Shown: one piece after another, positions 9,464 to 19,852 of the stretch | How the letters are laid out: each line of letters starts with the position of its first letter | Numbering within the stretch: position 1 is the stretch's first letter | Source: a bacterium | GTDB lineage: Bacteria > Margulisbacteria > Marinamargulisbacteria > UBA817 > JAQBTH01 | NCBI GenBank assembly: GCA_027623425.1 | Contig: JAQBTH010000006.1 | Span: 1 to 45,787, forward strand | Direction of reading: 5' to 3' | Length of the DNA stretch: 45,787 bases | Program-made: the position numbers and the translations under genes | Notes under the pieces: model-generated | Seen by the model: the letters and a program-made list of their open reading frames with translations, nothing else | Databases searched by the model: none | What the model was told of the DNA's origin: nothing

Positions 9464-10543
9464 TTAGTACTTTTGTCTAATATTTTCAATTACGGCCCGA
9501 TTTTGCTCTTCAGTTCCGATTGTAATGCGTAATCCATCGGCAAACCCAAACCCCTTCATGGATCTGCAAATTATTCCTGCTTCAATTAAGGATGAATAGA
9601 TCTCATCGGCCTTTTCAGCAAAGCGGGCAAAAATAAAGTTACCTTGGCTTGAAACATAGTCGATTCCCATCTGGCTAAAGGCGGCTTCAAATTGCACACG
9701 TCCAGCGCTATTCAATTGCACCGAACGCACCACGTGTGCCTGATTTTTTAAGGCTAAATCCGCGGCATATAGCGCAATTGAATTCACATTAAAGGGTTGG
9801 CGCACCTTATTTAAGGTTTCAATAATTTCTGTGCTCGCAATCGCGTACCCTACTCGCAACCCAGCCAATCCATATATTTTTGAAAACGTGCGCAGAATGA
9901 CTAGATTCGGGTGCATCGCTAACGCAGATACCGTATTGGGAAATTCGTCTGCAGTTGCATATTCGTAGTAGGCTTCATCCATTACCACGATGACACTTTT
10001 GGGTATATTTGCCATTAACTTATCAAATTCATTTTGAGAAATAATGGCGCCCGTTGGGTTGTTTGGGTTTGCGATAAAAACAAGCTTTGTCTGAGCATCT
10101 ACTGCTGCGATAATTGCATCCACATCGTATCTGTATTCTTTATACGGTACTTCAACTAGCTGACACCCCATTATATTGGCCACGAACGCGTATTCGCTGA
10201 AGGTTTGGGCGCTTGTGAGTATGGTCTGGCCAGCATTCACATACGCAAAGCCTAACATTTGCAATAACTCATCACTCCCATTTCCAAAAATGAGCTGGGA
10301 TGTTTCCACATCTAAAAACCCTGCTAAGGTTTTAAAAACCGCTGCGTGGCTTGTATCGGGGTAATGGTGAAGCGGGACGCCTAAACAATCATCAAGTGTT
10401 ACAGCAGCGCCTAACGGGTTTTCATTTGAGCCCAATTTAATAACCTCCTCGACCCCAATTTCTGACTTAATTTGAGCCACCGATTTTCCTGGAACATAGG
10501 GGGTAATTTTAGCGATATTGTCACGAGGCGTAGGCGTACTCAT
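9464..10543 (-). CDS. hisC: Histidinol-phosphate aminotransferase (aspartate aminotransferase fold)
   Basis: 359 aa, class I/II PLP-dependent aminotransferase of the HisC family. Visible: PYVPGKS at the N-terminus, KLGSNENPLG substrate loop, GNGSDELLQML, ANPNNPTGA, VMDEAYYEY with the PLP-contacting Asp and Tyr, and TFSKIYGLAGLRVGY with the Schiff-base Lys. The reaction converts imidazole-acetol phosphate and Glu to histidinol phosphate. Enzymes of this family also serve Tyr/Phe transamination, so with no his genes beside it and a shikimate cluster elsewhere in the window, an aromatic role cannot be excluded. Its ATG overlaps the stop of the small membrane protein gene by 4 nt (ATGA). Confidence 0.9.
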   Translation of the reverse strand: MSTPTPRDNIAKITPYVPGKSVAQIKSEIGVEEVIKLGSNENPLGAAVTLDDCLGVPLHHYPDTSHAAVFKTLAGFLDVETSQLIFGNGSDELLQMLGFAYVNAGQTILTSAQTFSEYAFVANIMGCQLVEVPYKEYRYDVDAIIAAVDAQTKLVFIANPNNPTGAIISQNEFDKLMANIPKSVIVVMDEAYYEYATADEFPNTVSALAMHPNLVILRTFSKIYGLAGLRVGYAIASTEIIETLNKVRQPFNVNSIALYAADLALKNQAHVVRSVQLNSAGRVQFEAAFSQMGIDYVSSQGNFIFARFAEKADEIYSSLIEAGIICRSMKGFGFADGLRITIGTEEQNRAVIENIRQKY

Positions 10544-10827
10544 GACTTCCCAAGATTACGGTCGCGCACTGCCCAACATAAAATAATAAATAGCGTGCCA
10601 TAAAGCGCACCTGTTCCCACGGTTGATAACACTAGCCATTCCTTATCAATTAGGCTGGTCATAACCGAATTGTTAAGTGCATCCTCGGACACAAACGGCG
10701 CAATGAATTGTACAGGCAGTTCATAAATTGGATAAAGCAGTTCAAATGTTGTGTATACCTGAAACTGGCTAATTAGAATTAGCACCCAAAGTATTAAAAA
10801 TAAGCCCAGCCGTATGGTATTCCTCAT
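10540..10827 (-). CDS. Small two-helix membrane protein, unknown function
   Basis: 95 aa from the ATG at 10827. I preferred this over an in-frame TTG at 10845 because that TTG lies on the -10 region. Two hydrophobic segments are visible, about residues 4-24 (IRLGLFLILWVLILISQF) and 68-90 (STVGTGALYGTLFIILCW), with a polar middle. No family recognised. It is the first gene of a unit with hisC (4-nt overlap) and gcvT. The -10 TACACT ends 9 nt before the start, and no Shine-Dalgarno is seen, so the mRNA should be nearly leaderless. Confidence 0.65.
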   Translation of the reverse strand: MRNTIRLGLFLILWVLILISQFQVYTTFELLYPIYELPVQFIAPFVSEDALNNSVMTSLIDKEWLVLSTVGTGALYGTLFIILCWAVRDRNLGKS

Positions 10828-10836
10828 GATGTAATT

Positions 10837-10846
10837 AGTGTACAAT
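10837..10846. promoter_or_regulatory. Overlapping divergent -10 boxes (small membrane protein / dus)
   Basis: AGTGTACAAT holds two opposite -10 hexamers sharing TA: TACAAT (10841-10846) for the plus-strand Dus gene, 8 nt before its ATG, and TACACT on the minus strand (10837-10842), 9 nt before the ATG of the small membrane protein. The gap between the two start codons is only 27 nt. The same 12-mer, TTAGTGTACAAT, recurs at 19208-19219. Confidence 0.65.
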
Positions 10847-10854
10847 GGCCCACC

Positions 10855-11796
10855 ATGACAGACAAGACATTTTGGGATACCTTACCTCGGCCTATCGTTG
10901 GTTTAGCTCCAATGGATGGATACTCAGATTCTGCTTTCCGGCATATTTGCAAGAAAGTAAATCCTGACATTGTAACCGTGACGGAATTCACGTCTGCGGA
11001 TGGCATTAGCTTTAGTGCTAGTAAATTAATGAGAAAACTGTCTTTTCACCCTGAAGAGCAGCCTGTAATTGCGCAAATTTTTGGCAAAAATGAAGAGACG
11101 TTTATTCGCGCCACAAAAGTATGCCAAGACATGGGGTTTAGTGGCATTGATATCAACATGGGCTGCCCAAGCAAAAAAGTAGTGCAAAGTGAACACGGGG
11201 TTGCGCTTCGTCGAAAGCCTGACCTTGCTTACCGATTGATAGAAGCCGTTGCCTCGAACACTCACCTTCCTGTGTCGGTTAAAACCCGATTGGGCTGGGA
11301 CAATGCCGAAGACTTGATTTCCTTTTCTAAAGGGGCACAGAATGCAGGAGCGAACATGATTTGCATACACGCGCGCACCTACTTGGAACCCTATAATGTA
11401 CCAGCACAATGGGAGCACTTATATGCGCTGAAACAAGAGCTATCTATACCTGTTTTAGGAAATGGTGGGATTGTTAGCTTAAAAGATGGGTTGGAAAAGT
11501 GTCAAAATTTAGATGGATTTTTAATTGGTCAGGCTAGTTTTGGAAATCCGTGGGTGTTTACTGAAGAGGGTATGCCCAGTTCGTTTGTAGACAAACTTCC
11601 CATTATTAAATTGCATGCGGAGTATTTGGTTGAGAACAAAGGGGAAACTGTGGGATGCCGCGAAATACGCAAACATCTTTTACAATATGTAAAAGGATTC
11701 AAGGGCGCGAAACTGTTTCGCTCAAAAATCACCCATGTGGATTCTTTAAGCGCGATTGATGAGGTTCTGGCCGAGATTGTCGCTTACGACGGGTGA
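10855..11796 (+). CDS. tRNA-dihydrouridine synthase (Dus family)
   Basis: 313 aa, flavin (FMN)-dependent reductase that makes dihydrouridine in tRNA. TIM-barrel motifs are visible: VGLAPMDGYSDSAFR (N-terminal FMN loop), INMGCPSKKV with the catalytic Cys, SVKTRLGWD with the FMN-binding Lys/Arg, IHARTY, GNGGI and IGQASFGNPW. The helical C-terminal domain (REIRKHLLQYVKGF...) is present. The usual GCPVKK is GCPSKK and the usual HGRT is HART, so it is a somewhat divergent member; which DusA/B/C class it belongs to is unclear. TACAAT ends 8 nt before the ATG and no ribosome site is present. Confidence 0.92.
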   Translation: MTDKTFWDTLPRPIVGLAPMDGYSDSAFRHICKKVNPDIVTVTEFTSADGISFSASKLMRKLSFHPEEQPVIAQIFGKNEETFIRATKVCQDMGFSGIDINMGCPSKKVVQSEHGVALRRKPDLAYRLIEAVASNTHLPVSVKTRLGWDNAEDLISFSKGAQNAGANMICIHARTYLEPYNVPAQWEHLYALKQELSIPVLGNGGIVSLKDGLEKCQNLDGFLIGQASFGNPWVFTEEGMPSSFVDKLPIIKLHAEYLVENKGETVGCREIRKHLLQYVKGFKGAKLFRSKITHVDSLSAIDEVLAEIVAYDG

Positions 11797-11827
11797 TTAA
11801 AAAAAATGAAATCGTCAAAACACCCAT

Positions 11828-11836
11828 TGCGATAAT
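11828..11836 (+). promoter_or_regulatory. Extended -10 promoter of the DUF2927-like lipoprotein gene
   Basis: TGC-GATAAT ends 29 nt before the ATG at 11866. The leader carries a GGGGGA ribosome site, so this gene is a leadered exception among the unit-heading genes. Confidence 0.5.
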
Positions 11837-11865
11837 ACATAGCACCAAAGAATGGGGGAACAAAC

Positions 11866-12576
11866 ATGAAGCGACTCGGATTATTCATCATTAGAACCAT
11901 TATCATTAGCGCACTAACAACTTCGCTAGTGGGTTGTGGACAAATGACAGACTCTGGCGAATCAAGCCCAACGGCCCCAACTTCAATAAATGTAAATTCT
12001 TCTACCGCATCCTATTTTAAATCCGTTGCATTTGGAAGTGAATTTGGCAGTAATTCTACGGCAGTTATACGCCGCTGGAACAGCGATATCCGCCTGAAGT
12101 TGCATGGTAACGTTACCGCATCAGATTTAGACTTTATTAATGCCGCCGTTGAACACTTAAATTCATTAACGGGCGAACACATCACCATTTCATTAACGGA
12201 TAGCGACAACGCCAATCTTTCCTTATATATAGTTGATAAAGCAGAATTTTCTAACATCATACCCACCGTTCAGCCTAATGTGGATGGATACGTTCAGGTT
12301 ACTAGTCGCTCAAATGTTATCTTTACTGGCAAAATTTTAATTTCAAATAACCTGGCCGGCAGCCGAAGAAACCATGTTATTTCAGAAGAACTGACTCAAT
12401 CCTTAGGGTTACTGTGTGATAGCTTAATATATAGTGACAGTATTTTTTATCAAAACTATAGCAGCGTGACGCAATACTCTTCAGAAGATGAAGATATCAT
12501 TAGCCTTTTGTACAGCGACGCCATTCGTCCAGGCTTAACTGAGCGACAGTTTAACGAGATGGCTCTCATTCTGTAA
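11866..12576 (+). CDS. DUF2927-like lipoprotein
   Basis: 236 aa. The N-terminus is a lipoprotein signal with lipobox LVGC (Cys24), followed by a Ser/Thr/Pro-rich linker. The C-terminal half matches the pattern I know for DUF2927: HVISEELTQSLGL (about 170-182), then DSIFYQNY, then DEDIISLLYSDAIRPGLT. This block resembles a metallopeptidase HExx[HQ] helix in which the first His is replaced by Ser, so activity is doubtful. GGGGGA is the ribosome site. The next gene is a large envelope metallopeptidase, so the two may act together at the outer membrane; this is inference from position. Confidence 0.65.
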   Translation: MKRLGLFIIRTIIISALTTSLVGCGQMTDSGESSPTAPTSINVNSSTASYFKSVAFGSEFGSNSTAVIRRWNSDIRLKLHGNVTASDLDFINAAVEHLNSLTGEHITISLTDSDNANLSLYIVDKAEFSNIIPTVQPNVDGYVQVTSRSNVIFTGKILISNNLAGSRRNHVISEELTQSLGLLCDSLIYSDSIFYQNYSSVTQYSSEDEDIISLLYSDAIRPGLTERQFNEMALIL

Positions 12577-12591
12577 TTTGGTTTATCTGCG

Positions 12592-12600
12592 TGGTATAAT
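12592..12600 (+). promoter_or_regulatory. Extended -10, leaderless promoter of the metallopeptidase gene
   Basis: TGG-TATAAT ends exactly 6 nt before the GTG at 12607, so transcription should begin at or next to the start codon. No ribosome site is present. Confidence 0.65.
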
Positions 12601-12606
12601 TCAGGC

Positions 12607-15195
12607 GTGATTCGCCATCTAATTTTATCATTTCTAATCATGACATTTTGCAGCCCGAATCTGCTTCATGCCTCATATAAAGAATGGCGCGCGCTAGAAA
12701 GCACTCACAATATTGTGCTGTATCCCGAAGGAATGCGGCATTATGCGGTTGATACCTTATACTATCTGGAACACTACCGTGCATCTGCCAAGAAACGTGT
12801 TGGTGCTCATGAAACGGGACAGCGCACCTATGTGGTACTTCAAGATACCGGTTTAGAGGCCAATGGATATGCAAGTGGTGTTACCAATAAAATTGGCATG
12901 TTTTTACGCTCACCCGACGGTGAAAACCAATCGTCGAACTGGTTGCGGCATGTCAGTGTGCACGAAATGGTGCATCGGGAGCAACTTCATAATGTGACGG
13001 GAAATGTGAAGGTGGCCACGACGGTATTTGGAAATATCGTGTCTCCACAAAATTATTTACCTCGTTCATTTATAGAAGGAATCGCTGTAAAAGAAGAATC
13101 GGCCCTACATCCGGGTGAAGGGCGTCTAAATGAAGGGCGGCAACATGCCTTTGTCTCCGCAAAAGCCAAGGCGCGCCGCCTACCCAATACTATTGGTGAG
13201 ATGAGCTACTTTCATAAGCACTTCCCTTTAGGCCAATGGTACATGTATGGCGCACGATTTAACGACTATATTTCTCGCACGTATGGCGAGGCAAAACATG
13301 CGGAATTCTTTAGTGAGCTTGGTTCGCGGGGCTTAAGTGTTATTTTTGCACCATTTTACCCGCCGATCGTGTTTGATCGCGTTGCCAGAGAGGTATACGG
13401 AAAACCATTTCAAGCCTTGTTCGCGCAGTGGGCACTGGAAGAAGAACAGGCGGCAGACAAGTGGGTACTCGGTCAAAATCGCGCCTATTCTGAATACTCA
13501 TGGAGCGTATCGAACTTAGTTCGCGCCAATGGCAAAGTGCTTGTGGCCGATAAACAGATGGCCTACGGATCGGCGTTTCAGTTGGTATACGCCACGCGAT
13601 TAATGGTCTTAGATCCTGAGACGGGGGAACGGGACATTCTTCATGAATTTAGCTCGCCACTCACTACCAAATTATCGGCAAATGATGACATGGTGTATTT
13701 CGGGCTTTCCGATTTTGACCGTGGGTTTGGAAATGCCGACCGTCTGACCTTTGGGCAGGTGACCCAATTGTATTCTTACGATCTTCACACCGGACGTTTA
13801 ACGCGGCTTAACAAAGGATTGATTCGTGCGGTGGCCGCGTCGCCTGAAGGGTACTATTACGCTGAGCTTTTACCGGATAGTACAGAGACCATTGTGTATC
13901 ATAAAGTGGGAAAAGAAGCACGAAGCGTTGCGATGGTAAATTTGGATATTTTTGAGATGGTTCTAGGCCCAAAAGACACGCTTTATCTGGTTGCCAAAAC
14001 ACCTCTAACCCCACCATCGATTTATGCGTTGAACACCGTTTCCGGCGCGTTAAGCAGTGTTGTTCAAAACGATTGGAAGCAATTTAACCTTGGAATAGCA
14101 GCAGGTAAAGCTGGATCCATTCCTGTATTGGAGTTCACTAGCAATCGTGGAAAACAATACCAGCTCTATCGTTATGATACGGCGACTAAACTAACGCAAT
14201 GGGCCAAAACGAGTAGCTATGCTGAGGCAGGCGTAAGTGTGGAAAAATCCATGTTTTATTCCAGCGTTGAAGCCGATGGAATGGGTATTTACCGCGCGCC
14301 ACTGTCGTTGACGCCGACTCGGTCACTTAACGTCAGCCAACACCCTATCGCATCTGTGCCAGTAGATTTTGAAGCGCAACTTACCGAAGTTGATGCCATG
14401 CGCGCGAGTTTTTCAAACATCCATCCACACACGCGTTTATGGCCATTTTACTTTCAAGGTGATGACGTGCTTAATTACTGGAACTACTCCATCATTCTTA
14501 ATTCCCGAGATGGCTATGACTATAGCATTTCGACGTCTGTTCTGGCCCCACTCACGCTTACTTATTCACAAATTACCGCCCTAGACTCCAATGATTCTTG
14601 GAAACGAAAGTCAGTGGGGCGCGTGGCTTATCCGCTCTTCCGTTCGGGGCGCGACGGCATTCAGGATATTCAGGCGTTGTTTGATACGGACTTTGAAGAA
14701 GAGCATCGCCCAGGTGCCATGGCAACATTTAGATGGCCACGCCATATCAGCATTGCCACGATGCAATTTGACAGTTTGGAAGAAGGGTACCGAATGGCGC
14801 TCAACAACAAAGCCTATCGAGATGGGCGATCTTTGGCGTTTTCAATGTCCGCATTCGAACGCTTTAATCATGTTCCTGAACAGCGACAACCTCAAAATTG
14901 GGTAGAGAATGGGGCGAATGTGCGAACGCAGTATCATTTCCGATTGGCTGAACTTCGCCAAGGATTTTGGGAATTTAACGCGTTCGTTGGCGACTTATAT
15001 GTGGCGCCATATTGGGATGTTCTTTTAGATGAGGATCAAGCAAACAAAAACCGACGCTTTAGCCATACGGCGGGCGTGGATTTCACCGCCGAAATAGGCG
15101 CCATGTCCCACCTGCATATTGCCCCGACGCTTGGCTTTGCCCTCTCTACGAATGAACCTTTAGTTTATTTGCAACTCCAATTGGGCTTGTTTTAG
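12607..15195 (+). CDS. Envelope metallopeptidase with propeller-like middle and outer-membrane barrel-like C-terminus
   Basis: 862 aa with a signal peptide (residues 1-22, ends LLHA). A gluzincin-type zinc site is visible: HEMVH at 119-123 and a candidate third ligand Glu157 in PRSFIEGIAV. About residues 290-600 contain repeated strand patterns with short Asp/Gly turns and YSYD/YRYD-type elements, like a TolB or beta-propeller region. From about 640 the sequence shows alternating aromatic strands (YDYSISTSVLAPLTLTYSQI) and ends in YLQLQLGLF, with the C-terminal Phe typical of outer-membrane barrels recognised by BamA. Likely outer-membrane-anchored with the peptidase in the periplasm or outside. 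The start is a GTG 6 nt after TATAAT. The three-domain reading is by pattern; the substrate is unknown. Confidence 0.7.
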   Translation: MIRHLILSFLIMTFCSPNLLHASYKEWRALESTHNIVLYPEGMRHYAVDTLYYLEHYRASAKKRVGAHETGQRTYVVLQDTGLEANGYASGVTNKIGMFLRSPDGENQSSNWLRHVSVHEMVHREQLHNVTGNVKVATTVFGNIVSPQNYLPRSFIEGIAVKEESALHPGEGRLNEGRQHAFVSAKAKARRLPNTIGEMSYFHKHFPLGQWYMYGARFNDYISRTYGEAKHAEFFSELGSRGLSVIFAPFYPPIVFDRVAREVYGKPFQALFAQWALEEEQAADKWVLGQNRAYSEYSWSVSNLVRANGKVLVADKQMAYGSAFQLVYATRLMVLDPETGERDILHEFSSPLTTKLSANDDMVYFGLSDFDRGFGNADRLTFGQVTQLYSYDLHTGRLTRLNKGLIRAVAASPEGYYYAELLPDSTETIVYHKVGKEARSVAMVNLDIFEMVLGPKDTLYLVAKTPLTPPSIYALNTVSGALSSVVQNDWKQFNLGIAAGKAGSIPVLEFTSNRGKQYQLYRYDTATKLTQWAKTSSYAEAGVSVEKSMFYSSVEADGMGIYRAPLSLTPTRSLNVSQHPIASVPVDFEAQLTEVDAMRASFSNIHPHTRLWPFYFQGDDVLNYWNYSIILNSRDGYDYSISTSVLAPLTLTYSQITALDSNDSWKRKSVGRVAYPLFRSGRDGIQDIQALFDTDFEEEHRPGAMATFRWPRHISIATMQFDSLEEGYRMALNNKAYRDGRSLAFSMSAFERFNHVPEQRQPQNWVENGANVRTQYHFRLAELRQGFWEFNAFVGDLYVAPYWDVLLDEDQANKNRRFSHTAGVDFTAEIGAMSHLHIAPTLGFALSTNEPLVYLQLQLGLF

Positions 15196-15214
15196 TAGCG
15201 AAATAGGCAAGCTG

Positions 15215-15223
15215 TGCTATAAT
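15215..15223 (+). promoter_or_regulatory. Extended -10, leaderless promoter of the DUF2251-SseB gene
   Basis: TGC-TATAAT ends 6 nt before the ATG at 15230. No -35 or ribosome site is recognisable. Confidence 0.65.
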
Positions 15224-15229
15224 TTTCGT

Positions 15230-16381
15230 ATGCAAAAGCACATCCATTCGCAATCTCCTGTCTCGCCCTATGCGGGCGTATTTGAATCTGACGATGACGG
15301 CGCTGTCTTTTGTGCCGTTAGCCTATCGTCTGAGCAAGAACCAGACGTTGATGATGTGATTGAAATATTTACAAAAAACGAGCTTGATGCGATTAATGAA
15401 AACTCGGATATACGCATCATGTGGAGTAAAGACGGCGATAAATGCGCGCTTCTGATTAATGATAATTTTTACGCCATGTTTGATTTTCTTAAAAAGGAAG
15501 GTCATACCCGTAACACAACATCCACTCCAGAATCGGGCTGGACGCGTGTCGCATTTAAGTGGACGGATGCCATTTCCGAAGAGTTTAGTTTTGATTTGGT
15601 TCAGAAACGCACAGAAAAATTAAATGCCGCAATTCACGATGTAAAAGACAAAGATAATGAGCGTTCGCGCTTGATGCTGTACCGGCACCTCATGCATAGC
15701 ACATTGTATATTCCGATTACGGGAAGCGATCCTGAAGCCAAAGATAATCTCTATTATATTTTTCCCTACGACACAACTAAAGACGGGCCTACAACGCGGT
15801 TTGTACTGTGCACATTCACAGACGAAAAAAGCTGCGAAGCGCATTTTGGTCAGTTTGGCATAAAGTACCAACCTGTTAAGGCTAACCATGTGTTTCACAA
15901 CATTCAAAACTATGATGTGTTCGCGGTTCTGGTGACGACTCCCGATGGTGTTTCTATCGTGGTTGAACGGGACGAGTTCCCGATCATCAGTATTTTAGGA
16001 GAACCCTCTTCTCTTCAATATAACGATATTATCAAAAATATGGCGCCCCTACTTTTAAAACCAGCAGAAGAAGACCTTACCCAGGCTCCTTATCCAGAAA
16101 TTGGGTCGATTTTAGATGGTAACCCTGAGATTAAATCGGCATTTTTATTTCGCACAACAGCCACTCACTCTCAGCTCACGTTGGGTATTTGTGTGATGGA
16201 TCCTAAAACCGCAAAACTAGGTAGTCTTTACCAAAATTTAATATCGCTGTTACAACGTCATCAATCCGATAATGAAGATGATTCATACTGTGTCACACTT
16301 TTAGAACCAAACTCCTTCTTACATTCCATGGTAAAGCAGGTCGTTACTCCGTTTTTTAAACGGGAAACGGTGGATATTTAG
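15230..16381 (+). CDS. DUF2251 domain fused to SseB-like domains
   Basis: 383 aa, no signal peptide, probably cytosolic. Residues about 10-130 match the DUF2251 pattern: GVFESDDDGAVFCAV, then DDVIEIF, DIRIMWSKDGDKCALLIND and a MFDF turn. About 155-270 resemble the SseB N-terminal domain (MLYRHLMHSTLYIPI, FVLCTFTDEKSCEAHF). About 285-380 resemble the SseB C-terminal domain (GSILDGNPEIKSAFLFRTTA). SseB was named for enhanced serine sensitivity in E. coli; its molecular role is not established. A shorter paralogue lies two genes downstream. Domain calls rest on recalled family patterns and need a profile search. Confidence 0.65.
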   Translation: MQKHIHSQSPVSPYAGVFESDDDGAVFCAVSLSSEQEPDVDDVIEIFTKNELDAINENSDIRIMWSKDGDKCALLINDNFYAMFDFLKKEGHTRNTTSTPESGWTRVAFKWTDAISEEFSFDLVQKRTEKLNAAIHDVKDKDNERSRLMLYRHLMHSTLYIPITGSDPEAKDNLYYIFPYDTTKDGPTTRFVLCTFTDEKSCEAHFGQFGIKYQPVKANHVFHNIQNYDVFAVLVTTPDGVSIVVERDEFPIISILGEPSSLQYNDIIKNMAPLLLKPAEEDLTQAPYPEIGSILDGNPEIKSAFLFRTTATHSQLTLGICVMDPKTAKLGSLYQNLISLLQRHQSDNEDDSYCVTLLEPNSFLHSMVKQVVTPFFKRETVDI

Positions 16382-16383
16382 CA

Positions 16384-17064
16384 TTGGCTGAGTTGCGTCA
16401 GGCATTAATTATTGGAGCAACAGGTGCCGTGGGGCAGCAATTGTGTGCACGACTTAGCCAACAGCCAGAATACAGCGCCATACACGTCATGGTACGTAGA
16501 TCGGTAAAAATCACACTGCCTAAGGTACAAGTGCATATTGTGGATTTTGATAATTTGCCTGCCGATCACCCAGCCTACCATGTGGATGATGTTTTTATCG
16601 CCATTGGCACGACGATGAGCACTGTAAAATCAAAAGACCTGTTTCGTATCGTTGATTTATTTTATCCAAAAGTAGTGTCTCGCCATGCAGTTGAGCATGG
16701 TGCCTCACGTATTTTAGCGGTTAGCTCTATGGGGGCATCGGCACATAAACGAAATTTTTATTTACGGGTAAAAGGTGAAATGGAAGAGGCTATTCGCCAA
16801 ACTGGCGCCGCTTTAACTGTTTTTTTTAGACCCAGTTTTGTTGTGGGAAAACGAAAGGAATTTCGCCCGTTGGAATGGCTTGGCATTTTAGCATCAACTA
16901 TTATATTGGCCCCATTTTGTAACTTACGTGCACGCTACGGGTCTATTTCTGCAACTGAAATTGCCGATTCTATGGTGGCGATCGCTTTGCAACATGATTC
17001 CGGAGATATGATTATCCAAAACGCAAACATGCGCGTTATCTCTAAGGGGTTTAACCGTGATTAG
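16384..17064 (+). CDS. NAD(P)-binding short-chain-type oxidoreductase (TIP30/YbjT-like)
   Basis: 226 aa Rossmann-fold protein. GATGAVGQQL near the N-terminus (about 10-19) is the dinucleotide loop, followed by VMVRRS at the end of the second strand, AIGTTMSTVKS, AVSSMGA, and YLRVKGEMEEA, where Tyr and Lys fall in an atypical-SDR YxxxK-like position. FRPSFVVGKR is also typical of atypical SDRs resembling TIP30 or YbjT. The start is a TTG (16384), 2 nt after the stop of the previous gene, without a clear ribosome site. It sits between the two DUF2251-SseB paralogues in one unit. The substrate is not inferable. Confidence 0.8.
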   Translation: MAELRQALIIGATGAVGQQLCARLSQQPEYSAIHVMVRRSVKITLPKVQVHIVDFDNLPADHPAYHVDDVFIAIGTTMSTVKSKDLFRIVDLFYPKVVSRHAVEHGASRILAVSSMGASAHKRNFYLRVKGEMEEAIRQTGAALTVFFRPSFVVGKRKEFRPLEWLGILASTIILAPFCNLRARYGSISATEIADSMVAIALQHDSGDMIIQNANMRVISKGFNRD

Positions 17065-17884
17065 TCGGTCTTTTGTACCTGGCACACCCACGACATTTAG
17101 TTCCCACAGTACTGTTGCTCCATTTATTGCGGCCTTTGAAGATGACGGTGACATTGGGTTGTTATACGCCTTCGTTCAACTGCCATCTGGGGAACCTGAG
17201 GTAGAAGAAGTACTGGTTGTCTATCGGCTGCATGAAGTACAGAAGAACCAAGTTAAGCTGTCTATTGTGTGGTCAGATACAGGCGAACAAATGGGTCTTA
17301 TTATTGATGGCCATCTTGAAACGGTGATTGATTTTGGTGCTAAAGTTAGTTATACCCAATATGGTGGATCGCCCCATCACAAGGCATGGCGCCGCTACCA
17401 TCTTGTTTGGCGACAAGAATGGGTGGACATGTTTCCTGAATACGCGGCCCAATTCACTGCACACCCCGACGATGCCGCTGGTGTATTGCCTATTGAATCT
17501 CTAAAGGGGGGGCGTTACCCAGTTGTGGCAAAACCATTTCCTATTGAAAAGAGTGATGCCGGCCTGCAGGCATTAATAGGGATTTTTCAAAATGAGCCTT
17601 TAGTCGAAAAGGCGTTTCTTTATCGAGTAGCCCGGGAAGAACAAACGGATATCATCCATGTGCTATTGCACCAAAAGAATGAGCGAAAAGAAGTGGGGAT
17701 CTACATGGCAATTGAACGGTTAAAACCCCACTACCCCAACCTATCAAATTTGCACTTAAAAACGGCCCTTAATGAAGCGGACTTATTCGCCAGGCTTGGC
17801 CCACATGTTCACGCTTTTTATCAGCAGCAAGTTGATAAAAAAGAGGCAAAGCCCGTTAAGCCAAACGCGCCTTCCCATTTGTAA
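17057..17884 (+). CDS. DUF2251 domain with SseB C-terminal-like domain
   Basis: 275 aa. Residues about 8-140 are DUF2251-like (PTTFSSHSTVAPFIAAFEDD, GLLYAF, SIVWSDTGEQMGLIIDGH, VIDFGA). About 170-265 resemble the SseB C-terminal domain (LIGIFQNEPLVEKAFLYRVA). Compared with the 383-aa paralogue upstream, the SseB N-terminal module is missing. GTG start with AAGGGG 7 nt upstream; overlaps the oxidoreductase gene by 8 nt. The 3' end overlaps the end of the converging aldehyde dehydrogenase gene by 29 nt. No function is known to me. Confidence 0.65.
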   Translation: MISRSFVPGTPTTFSSHSTVAPFIAAFEDDGDIGLLYAFVQLPSGEPEVEEVLVVYRLHEVQKNQVKLSIVWSDTGEQMGLIIDGHLETVIDFGAKVSYTQYGGSPHHKAWRRYHLVWRQEWVDMFPEYAAQFTAHPDDAAGVLPIESLKGGRYPVVAKPFPIEKSDAGLQALIGIFQNEPLVEKAFLYRVAREEQTDIIHVLLHQKNERKEVGIYMAIERLKPHYPNLSNLHLKTALNEADLFARLGPHVHAFYQQQVDKKEAKPVKPNAPSHL

Positions 17885-19202
17885 AAGCCACTAACCCAGA
17901 GGCCGCCAGTTCACGGCCAAACCCAGACTGTTTGGTACCACCAAACGGCACGGAATAATCACTACGAACTTGTGCATTTATTCCCACTACACCGACGTCT
18001 AATCGGTCGTAGAACCACTTGGCGCGAGACTCATCCTTGGTCCATACAGCTGCGCCTAAACCAAATTGCGTCTGGTTTGCCAGAGCTAGCGCATCGTTGT
18101 CAGATACTGCACTGTGCACGCTAATTACGGGCCCAAATGTTTCGGCGGCGACCACGGGCATATCGGCGCGAACGTTTGACAGGCAAGTGATTTGAAAGAA
18201 GTTGCCATCCGTGCGTTGATTTTCACATTGAAATAAGGTGGTAGCGCCCATATTCACACTATCAGAAACCTGAGCGGCAAGAGCGGATTTAATGTCGGGT
18301 CGTGCAAGAGGGCCTAAAGTGGTGGACTCATTTAGTGGGTCGCCTGACGTATACGCACGGCAGTGGGTTTCAAACTCATGCAAGAACTGATCTTTGATGG
18401 ATTCAGCGAGGATGAGACGCTTTGCGGCGATACACACTTGGCCAGCATTGGTACATCGTGCAGTTGCGGCGACCTGAGCTGCGGTGGCAATATCGGCGTC
18501 TGCACAGACGATAAAAGGGTCACTCCCGCCCAGTTCAAGCACGCAGGGAATACAGGCCTGACCGGCCGCAGCCCCAATGGCGCGCCCTGCCCGATTTGAA
18601 CCGGTTAGCGACGCCCCTCTCACCTGTGGATGGTGAATCATACGATGCACACCTTCTATGCTTAGGAAGGGTGATAAAAACGGCGTGGGTTCTGGCATAA
18701 CCTCGCGAAATATTGATTCTAATGTTTTAGCACATTGCGGCACATTTGGTGCATGTTTTACTAGAACGGCATTACCCGCAATAAGGGTTGGAATGGCAAA
18801 ACGAAGCGCCTGCCAAAACGGAAAATTCCATGGCATTACCCCGATAATCACACCCAGCGGGAAATGATGGTAATTCTCTGTTTCTTGGCTCTCCAACAAG
18901 GCTAGTCCATGTTCAAAATAATACTCGCACACGCCGATACACTTATCGATTTCAGCACGGGACTGTGTAATCGGCTTGCCCATTTCCAATGATATAAGGG
19001 CAGCACAGGCCTCTTTTTGTGCGTGCAATAGGCTTGCCAGCTTAGGTAATACGCTTAAACGCGCCTCTCTTGATTGTGCTCGCCACGCTTGGTAGCCACG
19101 GTGCAGTTCATCTAACTTCGCGTCTGCCTCGTTGTGATTTAGAACTGGATACTCGCCAAGCAAACTCTGATTGTATGGATTTATAGACTTAAAATTTTCC
19201 AT
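17856..19202 (-). CDS. NAD(P)-dependent aldehyde dehydrogenase, Sad/YneI type
   Basis: 448 aa, ALDH superfamily. Visible: VMPWNFPFWQ, LVKHAPNVPQCA, SLTGSNRAGRAIG, LELGGSDPFIV with the general-base Glu, AGQVCIAAKR with the catalytic Cys, and AETFGPV. The block KHAPNV plus ELGGSDPFIV closely follows E. coli Sad (YneI), which oxidises succinic semialdehyde, so that is the best guess; other short aldehydes are possible. The -10 TACACT ends 7 nt before the ATG and is shared back-to-back with the next gene. The 3' end overlaps the converging DUF2251 gene. Confidence 0.9.
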   Translation of the reverse strand: MENFKSINPYNQSLLGEYPVLNHNEADAKLDELHRGYQAWRAQSREARLSVLPKLASLLHAQKEACAALISLEMGKPITQSRAEIDKCIGVCEYYFEHGLALLESQETENYHHFPLGVIIGVMPWNFPFWQALRFAIPTLIAGNAVLVKHAPNVPQCAKTLESIFREVMPEPTPFLSPFLSIEGVHRMIHHPQVRGASLTGSNRAGRAIGAAAGQACIPCVLELGGSDPFIVCADADIATAAQVAATARCTNAGQVCIAAKRLILAESIKDQFLHEFETHCRAYTSGDPLNESTTLGPLARPDIKSALAAQVSDSVNMGATTLFQCENQRTDGNFFQITCLSNVRADMPVVAAETFGPVISVHSAVSDNDALALANQTQFGLGAAVWTKDESRAKWFYDRLDVGVVGINAQVRSDYSVPFGGTKQSGFGRELAASGLVAFTNGKARLA

Positions 19203-19209
19203 ACCCCTT

Positions 19210-19219
19210 AGTGTACAAT
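19210..19219. promoter_or_regulatory. Overlapping divergent -10 boxes (aldehyde dehydrogenase / unknown gene)
   Basis: Same arrangement as at 10837-10846. TACAAT (19214-19219) faces the plus-strand ATG at 19226 with a 6-nt gap. TACACT on the minus strand (19210-19215) faces the ALDH ATG at 19202 with a 7-nt gap. The two hexamers share TA. Confidence 0.65.
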
Positions 19220-19225
19220 ATAGGT

Positions 19226-19852
19226 ATGGGATCTAATCAAGTCGATGCTAATTCATTAAAGGAACGTGCCGCTCTTACAGCGACGCAATTGGTGCCGTTT
19301 ATTGCCTCTCAAACCGATATATCCATGCTCAATGCTACCCTATTTCCTGTGGTGCGTTTTTCTGACTTGTCTTTGGTGACTGCGTTAATTGAGTCTGGCG
19401 TGGCTGGCGTCATATACAGCGGAGACACTCCTGATGCATTCTTAAACCTTTGCCTGCCCATTCGCACCGAAATTATACTGCCCAATTTACACTTATCATT
19501 GCCGCAACAACCTGGAATTACCGCTGCCATTTGGGTGCATATTCAAACCGATCTTTTATCCGAAGGCCATTCTTGGAAATACACCGATGACCTAATCGCA
19601 TTTCTATCAAAGCTACCTAAAGACTACGTGTTTTCTGGGATTGCGTCAGATAGCAAATTGGCCAACTATGCCAAAACCGATTCGGATTTTGATGGCGCCT
19701 ATTCAGACATGATTACCGTGATGGATCATGTACGCGAACGCTTGGTTTTGGCTGGGTATCCAGATACAAAAATTATGGTGATGGATGACCATACTCCGCG
19801 TACCCAAGAGGCCTTTATTGGGGTTCATGTTCTATCACCGTATTTGGCTTAG
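19226..19852 (+). CDS. Conserved-looking protein of unknown function
   Basis: 208 aa from the ATG at 19226; an in-frame GTG at 19211 overlaps the -10 box and is unlikely to be the start. No signal peptide or membrane segment. It has alternating strands and helices (FPVVRFSDLSLVTALIESG, GVIYSG, TEIILPN, AIWVHIQTDLLSEGH, YVFSGIA, TKIMVMDDH), which recall a TIM-barrel or alanine-racemase-type layout, but I cannot name a family and no PLP lysine motif is evident. Leaderless promoter 6 nt upstream. It is followed after 28 nt by a methyltransferase gene that has its own -10 box. Confidence 0.6.
   Translation: MGSNQVDANSLKERAALTATQLVPFIASQTDISMLNATLFPVVRFSDLSLVTALIESGVAGVIYSGDTPDAFLNLCLPIRTEIILPNLHLSLPQQPGITAAIWVHIQTDLLSEGHSWKYTDDLIAFLSKLPKDYVFSGIASDSKLANYAKTDSDFDGAYSDMITVMDHVRERLVLAGYPDTKIMVMDDHTPRTQEAFIGVHVLSPYLA

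Follow-up and report, generated by a model that had tools for sequence, protein, structure and literature searches.

Identical 12-mers between divergent start codons in a Ca. Margulisbacteria genome as probable compact leaderless bidirectional promoters

In the window, the whole 45,787-nucleotide stretch of DNA analysed here, the 12-mer TTAGTGTACAAT lies between two pairs of divergent start codons, at 10835–10846 and 19208–19219, raising the question of whether one short element serves two genes at each site and whether its repetition marks a switch. The two copies are 8.4 kb apart and are the sole exact copies in the 1,864,922-base genome (a Ca. Margulisbacteria MAG). The initial annotation had reported the 12-mer at these positions, with TACACT on the minus strand and TACAAT on the plus strand sharing the central TA and lying 6–9 nt from the start codons, all of which is confirmed at both sites. 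The features of the two junctions are as follows.

10540–10827, minus strand: 95-aa predicted membrane-protein ORF (ORF list, codon score)
10837–10842, minus strand: candidate −10 hexamer TACACT for the 95-aa ORF; predicted start site ~10830, leader ~3 nt (from the TACACT peak at −13/−12)
10837–10846, no strand: putative shared bidirectional −10 core AGTGTACAAT, junction 1
10841–10846, plus strand: candidate −10 hexamer TACAAT for dus; predicted start site ~10852–10855 (from the genome-wide peak of the hexamer class at the same distance)
10855–11796, plus strand: dus, tRNA-dihydrouridine synthase (Dus; Pfam PF01207)
17856–19202, minus strand: aldehyde dehydrogenase (Pfam PF00171)
19210–19215, minus strand: candidate −10 hexamer TACACT for the aldehyde dehydrogenase; predicted start site ~19203–19202
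19210–19219, no strand: putative shared bidirectional −10 core AGTGTACAAT, junction 2
19214–19219, plus strand: candidate −10 hexamer TACAAT for the 208-aa ORF; predicted start site 19226, the A of the ATG
19226–19852, plus strand: 208-aa ORF, family unknown (codon score)

Geometry of the junctions and their genes

The entire intergenic region at each junction measures 23–27 bp. At junction 1 the hexamers end 8 nt before the ATG of dus (10855) and 9 nt before that of the 95-aa ORF (10827), and at junction 2 the distances are 7 nt for the aldehyde dehydrogenase (ATG 19202) and 6 nt for the 208-aa ORF (ATG 19226). All four genes thus carry a −10 hexamer ending 6–9 nt before the start codon, as leaderless genes do. 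Both junctions also have the form AnnnTAnnnT, in which opposite-strand −10 elements share bases and the predicted start sites are 23 bp apart. The best −35 matches at the two junctions reach four of six positions, with non-ideal spacing in two cases, and the extended −10 motif TGn is absent from both strands. A TA-overlapping pair with the consensus A at hexamer base four leaves no room for TGn, since the G position becomes T.

The start codons are best anchored for the two genes of known family. The ATG of dus falls within about one residue of the starts of its homologues, and its closest named relatives belong to Ca. Marinamargulisbacteria / Margulisiibacteriota. The nearest solved structures of the aldehyde dehydrogenase are succinate-semialdehyde dehydrogenases, aligned from residue 6. 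The codon-usage score is best in the claimed frame for all four ORFs. No Pfam match was found for the 95-aa or the 208-aa ORF, and neither has a relative among the related genomes searched (25 and 55, respectively), making these two the weaker members of their pairs. A Shine–Dalgarno reading of AAGGGG before the dehydrogenase start was rejected, as a single nucleotide separates this motif from the ATG and the predicted 5′ end lies downstream of it.

The 95-aa ORF overlaps the start of a downstream aminotransferase gene, next to which lies a GCV_T family gene, and a DOT1-like methyltransferase gene, itself preceded by a leaderless-type −10, comes after the 208-aa ORF. Pfam assignments and the neighbouring genes examined gave no evident functional link within either pair. 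Two other nearby genes (15230–16381 and 17057–17884) both contain a DUF2251 domain, likely through local duplication.

Leaderless genes and close divergent starts in the genome

Genome statistics were taken over 1.75 of 1.86 Mb with a simple longest-ORF gene set of 1544 genes starting at the first ATG. The hexamer class TA[TCA]A[AC]T occurs upstream of the first ATG at 11, 18, 31, and 44 per 1000 genes at positions −15 to −12, respectively, falls abruptly to 2 at −11, and elsewhere stays at about 3–5 per 1000; no such peak precedes internal ATGs in the 1.75-Mb sample. TACACT taken alone peaks at −13/−12 from the ATG genome-wide. Such a TAhAhT peak 6–9 nt before ATGs is the signature of leaderless genes known from other bacteria (PMC3160421, PMC12340547) and supports a promoter function for the hexamers, and class-level relatives, in a smaller sample, show the same peak. 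Aligned promoters have an extended −10, with TG at −3/−2 from the hexamer, and a nearly absent −35 signal. TACACT (24) and TACAAT (21) are the third and fourth commonest of 168 leaderless hexamers, after TATAAT (66) and TATACT (27). Leaderless-type genes are widespread in the genome, with TGnTATAAT directly against the ORF and without a distinct −35 (in the window at 12607, 15230, 19881, 25819, and 43637), and they coexist with Shine–Dalgarno genes.

A strict leaderless −10 precedes 21.5% of divergent-pair genes (background 3.6%) versus 8.3% of other genes (background 2.6%). Only ten of the 185 divergent pairs in the gene set have 15–31 bp between their first ATGs; in all ten, at least one gene has a −10 hexamer, and in six both genes do. 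Among 10,415 CAT-gap-ATG decoys, which are mostly coding DNA, 1.2% have a −10 for both genes. Shuffling of the gaps gives 0.35 double pairs expected versus the six seen, and none of 20,000 shuffles reaches six. By the strict definition, two of the ten short gaps are double, namely the two window sites, versus 0.034 expected (P ~0.0006 by shuffling). Close divergent starts thus show the double leaderless −10 geometry far more often than chance would give. The neighbours of the short gaps include recognisable proteins with sensible N-termini, such as RuvC-like and uroporphyrinogen decarboxylase-like starts, as judged by eye.

With a spacing of 7 bp from hexamer end to start site, the form TAnnnTA yields start sites 18 bp apart and the form AnnnTAnnnT, that of the window, 23 bp. 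The separations predicted in the six double pairs are 18, 18, 23, 23, 23, and 23 bp, in agreement with published bidirectional promoters of E. coli, for which 18 bp is the commonest start-site separation and 10 and 23 bp are also common (PMC12825309). The decoys likewise favour 23 and 18 bp, and the preference is partly built in because symmetric positions share conserved bases. At L038:5103-5120 and L065:11098-11116, divergent ATGs lie 17–18 bp apart around TATAATA / TATTATA, which belong to the 18-bp class. No positive gap below 17 bp was seen, and geometry permits none smaller when both transcripts begin at the A of the ATG. A 23-bp-type junction at L116:2750-2773, ATGTTACCAT, has TGn plus TAnCAT on both strands and so keeps the extended −10 in both directions, unlike the two sites of the window.

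Identity of the two copies and conservation of the junctions

Duplication or a repeat was rejected as the source of the two 12-mers, as the identity ends at 12 bases. The same 10-mer core is expected in about 5% of junction pairs, and 12-mer identity in about 1% for two junctions. Among the six 23-bp-type junctions, 0.77 identical 10-mer pairs and 0.13 identical 12-mer pairs are expected, these figures being rough as two of the six are candidates in which one of the genes would have to start at TTG. The identity is only mildly unlikely and most likely reflects coincidence within a small set of permitted hexamers.

The initial annotation had proposed searching for the element between divergent starts, and this search did not bear out a recurring sequence. 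The 12-mer occurs only at the two window sites, and the core AGTGTACAAT is present in 17 copies in 25 relatives, none of them between divergent starts; its reversed control is found 48 times in the same relatives (counted from the table), more often than the core. The core was accordingly ruled out as a lineage-wide element. A search of relatives for the symmetric 18-bp junction pattern was also set aside, as most matches were not between two long ORFs and one of 30 loci had both ORFs of at least 60 codons.

No relative examined keeps the dus junction upstream of dus, and the conservation or reuse in relatives that would be expected of a selected switch was not seen. In several relatives another −10 lies near the start of dus. 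In several distant members of the phylum (L148, L160, L162, L168, L170-L172), dus apparently has a leaderless-type −10 and a differing upstream neighbour. A 12-mer favoured in the lineage is not supported by the 25 relatives. The recurring feature of this genome is the geometry, a consequence of leaderless genes combined with −10 symmetry.

Compact bidirectional promoters and the competing readings

It is likely that each 12-mer acts as a bidirectional promoter for the housekeeping sigma factor, belonging to the 23-bp class, and that its two mRNAs are leaderless or nearly so. The two opposite-strand −10 hexamers would overlap by their first two bases (TA), and RNA polymerase would open the same ~10 bp in either orientation, with initiation ~12 positions from the −12 base of each hexamer. 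The ATGs would then coincide with the start sites or be at most ~3 nt from them, giving two mRNAs with little or no leader. The near symmetry of the −10 would allow one −10 readily to supply a second on the other strand at the 18- or 23-bp spacing, and the compact layout would arise because the genome has many leaderless genes with the −10 abutting the ORF and because the conserved −10 bases are nearly symmetric. The absence of TGn on both strands, together with the poor −35 matches, suggests that the promoters are probably weak, constitutive, and of sigma-70 type. The earlier proposal that one core serves two leaderless genes thus has computational support as regards the overlapping −10 elements, which are placed as leaderless or near-leaderless genes would require; transcription in both directions and the 5′ ends at both junctions are what we infer from the sequence.

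Bidirectional promoters have been defined by start sites 7–25 bp apart, and −10 symmetry is the published reason for their being common (PMC10268837). The window junctions resemble those described by Warman, Grainger and colleagues (PMC12825309, PMC10268837) in the shared −10 bases, the 23-bp separation (predicted here), and the poor −35; they differ in that the products would be mRNAs essentially without a leader and that the start sites are predicted. Leaderless genes with TANNNT ~12 bp before the start codon have been described (Zheng et al. 2011, PMC3160421; in Deinococcus-Thermus, PMC12340547) and are similar in hexamer, distance, and coexistence with Shine–Dalgarno genes. Unlike those genes, the present ones belong to Ca. 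Margulisbacteria, show an extended −10 TGn in the logo, and have two leaderless genes arranged divergently around a single −10. Neither 'divergent' nor 'bidirectional' appears in PMC12340547, 'divergent' is also absent from PMC3160421, and our literature search did not find the name Ca. Margulisbacteria together with 'leaderless'. The window junctions are very probably a further case of a known type of two-way promoter, made unusually compact by the leaderless arrangement.

Another reading, that each junction works in one direction, is unlikely; −10 symmetry would then have produced the reverse hexamer incidentally, and the promoter of the other gene would lie inside its neighbour. Once one −10 exists, the symmetric positions make a second TAnnnT cheap, the reverse TAnnnT at 23 bp needing just one further base, and the decoys share the 18/23-bp preference; either site could therefore have one direction unused. 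Against this stand the membership of both hexamers in the strict class and their position inside the narrow 6–9-nt range of the genome's leaderless genes, the genome-wide peak of TACACT alone at this position, and the improbability by shuffling of two strict double sites in ten short gaps.

The palindromic core TGTACA could instead be an operator for a regulator controlling both pairs, a highly improbable reading. In its favour are the perfect palindromy of the core and the identity of the two sites, but two hexamers beginning TACA give a palindrome automatically, the genome has no excess of TGTACA (215 found versus 242 expected), and the fully palindromic 10-mers occur just twice and once, with none seen at a double start. 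The designed switch of the initial annotation, in which the two genes of a pair would take turns because RNA polymerase can occupy the site in one orientation at a time, is likewise highly improbable. That polymerases exclude each other sterically at bidirectional promoters is accepted and is to be expected here, a strongly activated direction represses the opposite one (PMC12825309), and the two identical sites lie close together; however, all five E. coli bidirectional promoters tested were too weak at basal level for competition and competed only under strong one-way activation (PMC12825309), and competition between the genes of a pair therefore does not follow from the shared core. The lack of conservation of the junctions, the finding that the 10-mer is not enriched between divergent starts of the relatives, and the absence of a functional pairing of the genes also argue against a designed switch. 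The combined claim, that promoter symmetry sets the close divergent start codons in 18- and 23-bp classes and that the identical junctions are matched, mutually exclusive leaderless promoters whose genes alternate, is very improbable as a whole. A switch would matter only alongside expression data.

Because leaderless start codons mark transcription start sites, the published geometry of bidirectional promoters is recognisable in an uncultivated phylum from its sequence alone, and leaderless expression lets divergent genes sit only 17–28 bp apart.
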